From positions 1 to 36,384 of the forward strand of contig CANPHS010000011.1 of NCBI GenBank assembly GCA_947573925.1: 36,384 bases of DNA. The letters run 5' to 3'. Positions within the stretch are counted from its first letter, which is position 1, and each line of letters opens with the position of its first letter. The notes under the pieces are model-generated. The model saw only the letters and a list, made by a program, of their open reading frames with translations, was not told where the DNA came from and ran no database searches. This stretch comes from an uncultured Enterorhabdus sp. (GTDB lineage Bacteria > Actinomycetota > Coriobacteriia > Coriobacteriales > Eggerthellaceae). The position numbers and the translations under genes were made by a program. Shown in pieces: positions 28,105 to 34,342 of the stretch.

Positions 28105-28202
28105 ACCAAAGCCGACTTGAGTGGATACAAGCTGGGTTCCCGAATGGGAGTAGGCATCAGTTGAATGCTTAGAATTCCTTTGCTCCTGGGGTCGGCTTTG
28201 GT
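28105..28202 (+). ncRNA. Candidate structured small RNA convergent with the HEPN gene
   Basis: ACCAAAGCCGAC (28105-28116) and GTCGGCTTTGGT (28191-28202) form a perfect 12-bp closing stem around 74 bases. Inside are small hairpins such as TCCC-GAAT-GGGA and GCAT-CAGTTGA-ATGC. The predicted transcription start coincides with the first base of the stem. The 3' third is antisense to the last 11 codons of the DUF3644/HEPN gene. Similarity to the RNA partners of other HEPN systems is a hypothesis. No terminator U-tract is evident after 28202. Confidence 0.5.
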
Positions 28203-29221
28203 CGCTTCGCAACTTCTTTCTTCAGGCGATCGATGATGCCTTCCGGATTCTCTCGCACCTTATCCCAAATCAAATCTATCACTTGCTGCGAGTAAATGAA
28301 AGAAGAAGGCTCTCCTTCCAGCGAGTTATCATAAGAGTATCGGCTATCGGCTTTCATTCCATAGAATGAGGTGAACAGCCCGAACATATAGAGGTTGAAG
28401 GGACGACGGTTCTTCGTGCGGGCACGCGTATCCGAACCATCCTGCATAAGCACAACGCCCGACTTCGCCAAACGCTCGCAAATAGCCTTCACCACTCCAC
28501 TCGGACGATAGGGGTACTTGTTCTTAACTTCAACAGGAGTTTTGATAACCGCCACGGGCACATCACCGCTCTCAGCAATGCGGAAGGTATGGTCAGCATC
28601 GCCTTTCTTCGTACTTCTCAGCTCGGTTACATAGGTGCAGCTGAATTTCCTGTTGTCAAGCTCATCGGCTATGGTAAGAATGCCCTCGCGCTTCTCTAGC
28701 ATCTTCTCAAGAACAACGGGGTCGTAGCGAGCGCGGCACTCATCTTCATCTACCGTAGATTTGCGAACAGACAAAACAAGGTAGTTCTCCGGAATAAGAT
28801 CGCTAACCTCAATACCCAAGAGCCGCCTTGCCTGGCGATCGAAATTCTCAACGGAAGCCTGAAGAATTGGCCCGTAGAAACTCTCGTATTCGGGAACGAC
28901 GAAATGGGCGCTGGTATTTCGCACATCAATGAGCTTGTCCATGTTCCTGCGAAGAGGGTCTTTGCTGTTCGTAAACACCTTTTTGAGACAGTCCTCTAGA
29001 GAAAGGGTGCGCGTATTTCCAGGATAATAGATCTCTTCAATTCCGTACCGCTCAACAATATGAGCCTTAAGCATGAGCTCCCATGCATTGCAGAGGAAGA
29101 AAGAACAGCCTTCTACATGGTATTGAATAGTAGGGCGATTATAGAGCTCGATAGCGAGCAAGAAAGCCTCTTGAGCCTTTCGCATAAGTCGATCGTATGT
29201 CTGTTGTTCCTGATCGTTCAT
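28169..29221 (-). CDS. DUF3644 protein with HEPN ribonuclease motif
   Basis: 350 aa. The N-terminal part matches DUF3644 (RKAQEAFLLAIELYNRPTIQ and SFFLCNAWELMLKAHIVERYG). DVRNTSAHF contains Arg101-Asn102-x3-His106, the R-x4-H signature of HEPN RNases. The C-terminal part has a conserved-looking PSGVVKAICERL segment and FYGMKADSRYSYDNS, possibly nucleic-acid binding. GC content and codon use are clearly lower than in the neighbours, a sign of transfer. ATG at 29221; an extended -10 lies ~45 bases upstream. It converges with the candidate RNA at 28105-28202. Probably a defence or toxin-type RNase; this is inference. Confidence 0.8.
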   Translation of the reverse strand: MNDQEQQTYDRLMRKAQEAFLLAIELYNRPTIQYHVEGCSFFLCNAWELMLKAHIVERYGIEEIYYPGNTRTLSLEDCLKKVFTNSKDPLRRNMDKLIDVRNTSAHFVVPEYESFYGPILQASVENFDRQARRLLGIEVSDLIPENYLVLSVRKSTVDEDECRARYDPVVLEKMLEKREGILTIADELDNRKFSCTYVTELRSTKKGDADHTFRIAESGDVPVAVIKTPVEVKNKYPYRPSGVVKAICERLAKSGVVLMQDGSDTRARTKNRRPFNLYMFGLFTSFYGMKADSRYSYDNSLEGEPSSFIYSQQVIDLIWDKVRENPEGIIDRLKKEVAKRPKPTPGAKEF

Positions 29222-32863: not shown

Positions 32864-34246
32864 TTACGCCCAGTCGTCGAAGGATATCTCGTCTAACTGC
32901 AAGCCGCCGAAATCATCCTCGCGCTCCTCGCCCAGGCACATCGTCATATAGAGGGGCAGGTAGTACACCGGCTTACCCGCGCGCTCTTCTACCGATACGT
33001 TGTGCTCGGAAAGCACGTAGGCGCATTCGACGGCCTCCCCCTTCTCCCCCAGCAGATTGTTGAGGGCCATGTGGCGCTTATAGTCCTTGCCGGATTTCAC
33101 TTCCACGGGCAGCACTTTCTCGTCTTTGGTCTCCAGGAGAAAGTCCACTTCGCCCTTGCGGTTGTTGTGATAGTAGAACAGCGGAAACCCCGCGCTGGCG
33201 ATCTCCTGGGCGACCACGTTCTCGTAGACCGCTCCGAAGTTGGCGTCGCCTTCCCCAGCCACCACATCCATGGCGCTGCGCGTGGGATACTGGGAGAGCA
33301 GAACGCCGCAATCCGACGAGAACAACTTGAACTTGCTCCCCTGCTTCGTGCGCAGCAGAGGGAACTTCGCCTCGTTCACCAAAGTCGTCTGCAACGCCAC
33401 TCCTGCCTTGACAAGCCACGAGAAGTCGTTTTCCAGACGCTCGTACGTGGCGTTTTGTCCCACGGACATCATGGTAAAGCGCTTGTTCTCCTTGGCGAGC
33501 TGTCCGGGAATGTTATCGAAAATGGCGAGAACAGGCATCTTGCGTTTCCCGGTGTACTTCACGATATCGTAGCGGTACTGCTCGGCGATATCGGTATCTA
33601 CGGCTCGCGCCGCTCCCAAGTCCCGGTTCAGATCGATGAACTGCTGCACTGCCTCGGGCATACCGCCCACGGCAATGAAGCGCCGAAAAAGTGCCGTGAG
33701 ACGGTCATGCAGGGATTCCTCGAGCGGCGCTTTCAACCGATAGGCCTCACGCACCTGATCCAGCACCGATCCCGGCACACCGGATGCCCAACAAAATTCC
33801 TCGAAGTCGAGGGGATACATGCGAAGTATCTTCGCATAACCCACGGGAAACGACGTCACACCCTCCAGGGCAGTTCCCAGAAGCGAGCCGGAGAGAACGA
33901 GACTGAAGCGACCGTCGTCAAGCAGGAACTTCGATAACGTAACCACATCGCGTCCCAGATGCTGCACCTCGTCAAAAAAAACGAGCGTACCCGGCTGAAT
34001 GGGACGACCGACGATGAGCGAGAGTCGACTTACCAGCTCCTCGGCACTCGATGCGCTCGCAAGAAAACGGCCGTTCTCCTCGTCCTCCAAGAAGTTAACC
34101 TCGATGAAGCCATCGTAGCACGCCCGCGCGAACTGACGAACGATGTAGGTTTTGCCGGTTTGGCGAGCGCCCAGCAGCAGAAGCGCCTTCCGGTCGTCCT
34201 CGCGGCTCCAAGCGACAAGCCGATCGTACATTTTGCGCTTCAGCAT
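32864..34246 (-). CDS. AAA ATPase with DUF4143 C-terminal domain
   Basis: 460 aa. N-terminal AAA domain with Walker A GARQTGKT (26-33) and Walker B TLVFFDEVQ (Asp92-Glu93), and a sensor-like SLVLSGSLLG at ~113. The C-terminal DUF4143 part has a PD-(D/E)xK-like core, GEVDFLLETKDEKVLPVEVK, which is nuclease-like. This family is very common in gut anaerobes and its role is unknown; it is often patchily distributed and probably mobile or stress-related. Start ATG at 34246 follows AGGAGG. The three 17-bp direct repeats upstream overlap its promoter region. Confidence 0.88.
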   Translation of the reverse strand: MLKRKMYDRLVAWSREDDRKALLLLGARQTGKTYIVRQFARACYDGFIEVNFLEDEENGRFLASASSAEELVSRLSLIVGRPIQPGTLVFFDEVQHLGRDVVTLSKFLLDDGRFSLVLSGSLLGTALEGVTSFPVGYAKILRMYPLDFEEFCWASGVPGSVLDQVREAYRLKAPLEESLHDRLTALFRRFIAVGGMPEAVQQFIDLNRDLGAARAVDTDIAEQYRYDIVKYTGKRKMPVLAIFDNIPGQLAKENKRFTMMSVGQNATYERLENDFSWLVKAGVALQTTLVNEAKFPLLRTKQGSKFKLFSSDCGVLLSQYPTRSAMDVVAGEGDANFGAVYENVVAQEIASAGFPLFYYHNNRKGEVDFLLETKDEKVLPVEVKSGKDYKRHMALNNLLGEKGEAVECAYVLSEHNVSVEERAGKPVYYLPLYMTMCLGEEREDDFGGLQLDEISFDDWA

Positions 34247-34261
34247 GTTTACCTCCTATTT

Positions 34262-34342
34262 TGCCGCTAGAACAGAAAATATTATGCCAAAAATGCCGCT
34301 AGAACAGAAAGAATTTCTCAAAAAATGCCGCTAGAACAGAAA
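34262..34342. repeat. Three 17-bp direct repeats at 32-bp period
   Basis: TGCCGCTAGAACAGAAA occurs identically at 34262-34278, 34294-34310 and 34326-34342, each start exactly 32 bases (about three helical turns) after the previous one. The 15-base spacers differ, apart from A-rich ends. Read on the minus strand, a -10-like CATAAT lies between the first two copies and the AGGAGG of the ATPase gene follows. An iteron-like operator is most likely. Confidence 0.85.

Follow-up and report, generated by a model that had tools for sequence, protein, structure and literature searches.

Organization of the locus

The window analysed here is the whole stretch of 36,384 bp formed by contig CANPHS010000011.1 of an uncultured Enterorhabdus sp. 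(assembly GCA_947573925.1), in which a gene for an AAA_14-DUF4143 ATPase, located on the minus strand, is preceded by three copies of a 17-bp repeat. As already reported in a first-pass annotation of this DNA, the three copies of TGCCGCTAGAACAGAAA are identical and follow each other at a spacing of exactly 32 bp; in the orientation of the gene, this word reads TTTCTGTTCTAGCGGCA. The order of the elements is word, spacer, word, spacer with TGGCATAAT, word, AGGAGGT and ATG, and the copy closest to the gene stops 15 bp short of the ATG, immediately upstream of the AGGAGG ribosome site. The features of the locus are as follows:

34326..34342, minus strand: candidate operator word copy 1, promoter-distal, TTTCTGTTCTAGCGGCA (sequence)
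34294..34310, minus strand: candidate operator word copy 2, overlapping the expected -35 position for the -10 box TGGCATAAT (sequence; position by inspection)
34281..34289, minus strand: putative extended -10 box TGGCATAAT, between copies 2 and 3 (sequence and family position statistics)
34262..34278, minus strand: candidate operator word copy 3, promoter-proximal, over the expected transcription start, with the -10 box on one side and the ribosome site on the other (sequence; position by inspection)
34251..34257, minus strand: Shine-Dalgarno sequence AGGAGGT (sequence)
32864..34246, minus strand: AAA_14-DUF4143 ATPase, 460 amino acids, PADLOC PDC-S01 (Pfam and PADLOC models)
33791..34192, minus strand: AAA_14 ATPase domain, residues 19-152, STAND-like fold (Pfam; structure comparison)
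33317..33550, minus strand: winged helix, residues 233-310 (AlphaFold2 model)
33407-33448, minus strand: predicted recognition helix, about residues 267-280, with the codon of residue 267 at 33446-33448 (AlphaFold2 model; covariation)
32954..33244, minus strand: putative PD-(D/E)XK-like nuclease part of DUF4143, C-terminal, with E342, E366/D368 and E382-x-K384 (motif conservation)

The self-match score of the array region reaches 37, compared to a maximum of 14 among 500 dinucleotide shuffles, and Tandem Repeats Finder recovers the same three-copy array. The region is A+T-rich (36% G+C, against 66% for the window), and no further copy of the word with up to 3 mismatches occurs in the window, for which shuffles average 0.03 matches. 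Note that a generic promoter and terminator scan of the array region found nothing, and that the -10 box was called here from family-wide position statistics and not from the promoter scan. An array of clustered regularly interspaced short palindromic repeats (CRISPR) was considered and rejected for this locus, which holds 3 x 17 bp with 15-bp spacers that include the -10 box, and which is flanked by SNF2 helicase and ABC transporter genes and not by cas genes.

Gene-specific words in a conserved layout

The first-pass annotation suggested that a conserved upstream iteron would provide a handle on the family. Our results indicate that the architecture is conserved and does provide such a handle, but that the word itself is not conserved. 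Indeed, the conserved feature consists of two to five direct copies, 32-33 bp apart (i.e., three helical turns), around a -10 box, and the word in them diverges as the protein does. Homologues carry their own repeated words in the same layout, and nearly every upstream region read showed one, such as TTTCTGTTTTAGAAACA (locus L012), TTTCTGTACTAGTTG (L013), CTTGGAAAAGCGGCAAA (L169, Bacteroides caecigallinarum), TTGGAAAAACGGACAAA (L176, Odoribacter) and ATCGGAAAACGCACCTTTTTAGG (L231, Bacteroides). Even paralogues within one genome have differing words; as an example, AACTCGTCGCAA is the word of L059, a paralogue inside the window's own genome.

Upstream direct repeats were scored at all lags from 16 to 70 and compared with shuffles. 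Among the Eggerthellaceae homologues, 86 of 107 loci exceed all 60 shuffles, and of the 91 loci that are reached by at most 3 of the 60 shuffles, 34 have their best lag at 32 and 40 at 33. The 80 named homologues, which span Bacteroidota, Bacillota, Actinomycetota, Akkermansia, Fibrobacter, Treponema and Methanocorpusculum, gave 66 loci above all 60 shuffles (lag 32 in 25 and lag 33 in 33), and 242 loci exceed all 50 shuffles in a non-redundant set of 305 homologues from several phyla and one archaeon, with a lag of 31-34 in 216 and of 62-66 in 18. As a control, a similar repeat test was passed by 9 of 150 upstream regions of neighbouring genes.

The window word is private to its gene. The first-pass annotation had regarded the absence of the repeat upstream of all close homologues and elsewhere in the genome as speaking against its proposal, and the literal word was indeed found in neither place: the window's genome holds no exact second copy and one match at 3 mismatches, and a 13-nt core of the word is absent upstream of the other DUF4143 genes in 138 Eggerthellaceae genomes. 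This core has two other occurrences, each as a single copy.

Other layouts were seen outside these homologues. In other DUF4143 clades, direct repeats lie 22-24 bp apart (e.g., L158, L418, L421 and L434, where 22-23 bp correspond to two helical turns), and ATTCGGATTTTGGTA is repeated several times in L434, within the window's own genome. Distant DUF4143 clades have inverted instead of direct repeats, with 13 of 25 loci exceeding all shuffles; inverted repeats or dyads were recorded at L131, L135, L138, L140, L142, L147-L149, L152, L154, L155 and L157, and they flank a -10-like box in several distant-clade loci. In both layouts, the sequence is again private to each gene.

Position of the arrays at the promoter

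Over 87 family loci, 60 -10-like hexamers were observed in the last inter-word interval, compared to 11.4 in shuffles, with offsets mostly of 15-18 and 25-29 from the word start, and no comparable excess was found in the other intervals of these loci. The distance from the end of the last word to the start codon has a median of 27 bp. By their position, the word arrays are candidate binding sites overlapping the promoter of their own gene. Since the -10 box lies between the last two words, a protein bound there would cover the promoter, and we therefore infer that repression is favoured over activation. The cooperative binding of a protein on one DNA face, as put forward in the first-pass annotation, is partly supported: the repeats very probably form a protein-binding array at the promoter with sites three helical turns apart, on which binding may be cooperative.

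Covariation between the words and the recognition helix

The words from 265 loci were aligned iteratively to one 20-nt frame (consensus TTTTTTGGAAAA(A/G)TGTAAAA), in which positions 8-14 are among the best conserved between the copies within a locus. Covariation was computed as mutual information with average product correction (APC) between protein columns and word positions for 234 loci (effective number 65), and the pair formed by residue 267 and word position 14 ranks first among about 6,450 residue-base pairs (Z 5.4). Indeed, a G is found at word position 14 in 128 of 141 loci with R267 and in 33 of 37 with K267, against 3 of 33 with T267 and 0 of 4 with Q267. Written as a binary table, 161 loci combine R/K with G, 17 R/K with another base, 9 another residue with G, and 47 another residue with another base. 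These two characters change state about 20 and 27 times on the tree, and when the word character was simulated along the tree, 0 of 3000 runs reached the observed phi of 0.71 (null standard deviation 0.11, maximum 0.34), the simulation being made without correction for the choice of this pair as the best of about 6,450, with a wide margin nevertheless.

In a subset whose frame was set solely by an unambiguous GAAAA, G accompanies R/K in 29 of 46 loci and other residues in 0 of 13, and disjoint pairs of relatives differ in the expected direction in 5 cases and in the opposite direction in 0, with 3 pairs showing no difference. As an example, the words of L239 (R267, TTGGATTGAAAAGTG...) and L376 (Q267, TTGGATTGAAAAGTA...), whose proteins are 67-68% identical, match to position 13, and position 14 is G with Arg and A with Gln. 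Arg-G and Gln-A are textbook protein-base contacts, and the AlphaFold2 model of the window protein places residue 267 immediately before helix 268-280, the third helix of the winged helix. Because the gene-specific word changes together with the DNA-reading helix, it is very likely that the DUF4143 ATPases bind the promoters of their own genes and control them.

Several observations weigh against this conclusion. About one fifth of the genes have no clear array, and the alignment of the words to the frame drew on protein neighbours and is hence partly circular. Moreover, the winged helix is only mildly enriched in the top 50 pairs (14 compared to 9.6 expected), and a partial-correlation scan peaks elsewhere, at residues 116-135. 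The window's own pair, T267 with G14, is one of the nine exceptions, and the window protein may read word position 14 by other means. A first covariation run, on 144 loci, placed residues 118 and 267 on top, with little enrichment of the winged helix. The regional link between word similarity and protein similarity, with its peak at these same residues 116-135, was weak overall (rho 0.09) and was not used as evidence.

The AAA_14-DUF4143 protein

The window protein matches the Pfam families PF13635 with 86.6 bits (cut-off 28.1) and PF13173 with 73.4 bits (cut-off 27), and its residues 1-445 match the PADLOC PDC-S01 model PDLC04792 (E 5e-168). The first-pass annotation held that this ATPase had no known function; it is the PADLOC defence candidate PDC-S01, which is a candidate status only. 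According to PMC12988326, PDC-S01 is an ATPase fused to a PD-(D/E)XK domain and ranks as the fourth commonest defence across prokaryotes, and the antiviral activity of most PDC candidates awaits validation. Among 106 sequences, E342 and K384 are invariant and E366, D368 and E382 are conserved in at least 90%. This E, D, E-x-K motif fits a PD-(D/E)XK nuclease active site, and a nuclease activity is predicted, the assignment to this fold being drawn from the motif together with PMC12988326.

The AlphaFold2 model has a mean predicted local distance difference test score (pLDDT) of 93. Its best structural matches are the PDB entries 2qen (Z 16.9, root-mean-square deviation 4.4, 268 aligned residues) and 2fna (Z 16.0, root-mean-square deviation 4.2, 267 aligned residues), followed by CED-4 and plant NLRs (Z 14-15) and, lower, by Avs5 and Orc1; the matches also include MuB filaments and Orc1/Cdc6 on origin DNA. 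By fold similarity, the window protein is a STAND-type AAA ATPase, with an ATPase part and a winged helix. Solved structures searched by sequence returned only weak AAA matches.

Proposed explanation and alternatives

We consider it probable that the three repeats serve the downstream gene as its private operator, and that the ATPase-nuclease which it encodes binds the array and represses its own promoter. Protomers would bind the words head to tail on one DNA face, probably with one winged helix per 32-bp unit, and the protein at copies 2 and 3 would cover, on either side of the -10 box, the -35 region and the transcription start, leading to repression of its own promoter. The protein would then leave the array when a signal, from infection or otherwise, acts on the ATPase. 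DUF4143 matches number 23 in the complete genome G019, 16 in the window's genome and 16 in G304 (the genome of L189). A genome can hold many paralogues, up to about two dozen, and cross-reaction among them would be avoided, given that each word changes in step with the recognition helix. A wider proposal, which we put forward tentatively and regard as less likely than not, is that this common candidate defence family consists of self-labelled STAND ATPase-nucleases silenced on privately coded operators and kept orthogonal through a residue-to-base code, from which an infection signal would release them, so that derepression and nuclease activation would be one switch.

The same protein might bind the array chiefly for oligomer loading or anchoring, in the way that Orc1/Cdc6 load on origin boxes, in relation to nuclease activity or mobile-element replication, or for activation and not for repression. 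The STAND ATPases, origin-bound Orc1/Cdc6 and MuB filaments among the model matches agree with this explanation, as do repeats that are direct and not dyadic, at a fixed integral-turn spacing, and the residue-base covariation is equally compatible with it. However, the -10 box inside the array is a place for a repressor, and the four scanned neighbours of the window gene include no replication or transposition gene; we regard a loading or activating role as unlikely.

Self-repression has also to be weighed against explanations that leave the ATPase aside. The identity of the binding protein is unproven by the present analysis, which leaves room for a separate, unlinked regulator, but the word is specific to each gene, even between paralogues of one genome, and it varies with the ATPase's own recognition helix. 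As genes under one regulator would retain one word in common, such a regulator appears very improbable. Hardly any weight can be given to a CRISPR-like element, to an element acting at the RNA level, or to repeats left behind by slippage or transposition. Although 17-bp repeats with 15-bp spacers superficially resemble a very short CRISPR array, these short spacers contain the promoter, and transcription from the -10 box found would include only the last copy. In addition, the genome holds no second exact copy of the word, and over several phyla the words keep their position and spacing and not their sequence.

Relation to known systems

No earlier description of DUF4143, AAA_14 or COG1373 repeat arrays was found in the literature searched, which was open-access only, and one may exist elsewhere. 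PADLOC PDC-S01 is the same protein family, but it was defined through protein models alone, and operator arrays are unmentioned in the accessible text of PMC12988326. The archaeal STAND ATPases 2qen and 2fna share the ATPase and winged helix with the window protein, at only 15-18% identity and with a match that covers residues 1-321 and not the nuclease part. To our knowledge, no operator array is known for these two ATPases.

In restriction-modification systems, C proteins control a defence-associated gene via repeats at the promoter. The repressor RptR, which we liken to the present case, also controls a defence-associated gene through promoter repeats (PMC12255303). In both, the DNA-binding regulator is a separate protein, whereas in the present family the DNA reader is part of the putative effector ATPase-nuclease, and the DUF4143 arrays are direct repeats three turns apart. 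Plasmid iterons and Orc1/Cdc6 origin boxes are likewise repeated in direct orientation at close to whole helical turns, and the winged-helix protein that binds them may also repress its own gene; Orc1/Cdc6 is also among the structural matches of the window protein. In contrast to these, no origin or plasmid backbone was seen here, the arrays surround the promoter, and each paralogue has its own word. Autoregulation from repeats is already known as a kind; the new element would be its use throughout a large family of putative effector ATPase-nucleases, with a separate word for each gene and a residue-base code that can be recognised.

DUF4143 ATPases are very common, yet hardly treated in the open-access literature searched, where a single paper names DUF4143. 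For each gene, the arrays supply a predicted binding site, promoter and specificity residue, which makes binding, regulation and triggering directly testable, and together they amount to a large natural collection in which winged-helix proteins are matched with operators. With their 16 and 23 DUF4143 matches, G304 and G019 are suited to the study of word orthogonality.

Probable gene gain and genomic surroundings

The window gene is flanked by genes common to same-genus relatives, and the closest homologues of its protein (65-72%) belong to other genera. In same-genus relatives with matched neighbours, the interval between the ABC transporter and the SNF2 helicase is without the DUF4143 gene and without the array. 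As gene and array are missing together at the same site, they arrived together, probably by horizontal transfer. Viral contigs searched for the identical window array yielded none. Relatives of the window gene are found on 60 of 72,556 plasmids, and phage-borne relatives on 12 IMG/VR contigs and in 11 phage records; because the phage-borne relatives are few, the DUF4143 genes are considered mainly chromosomal. Several homologues (e.g., L034, L039 and G008:C1:22405-23724) are broken by one or two stop codons, which suggests rapid gain and loss of DUF4143 genes.

Elsewhere in the window, the contig starts at positions 1-81 with a C run that includes blocks of G and is probably a low-complexity end or one due to assembly. 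Positions 28169-29221 carry a gene for a DUF3644 and EC042_2821-like endonuclease, corresponding to PADLOC PDC-S19 (E 6e-153), i.e., a second single-gene defence candidate close to the window DUF4143 gene, around which same-genus relatives have a different gene order.
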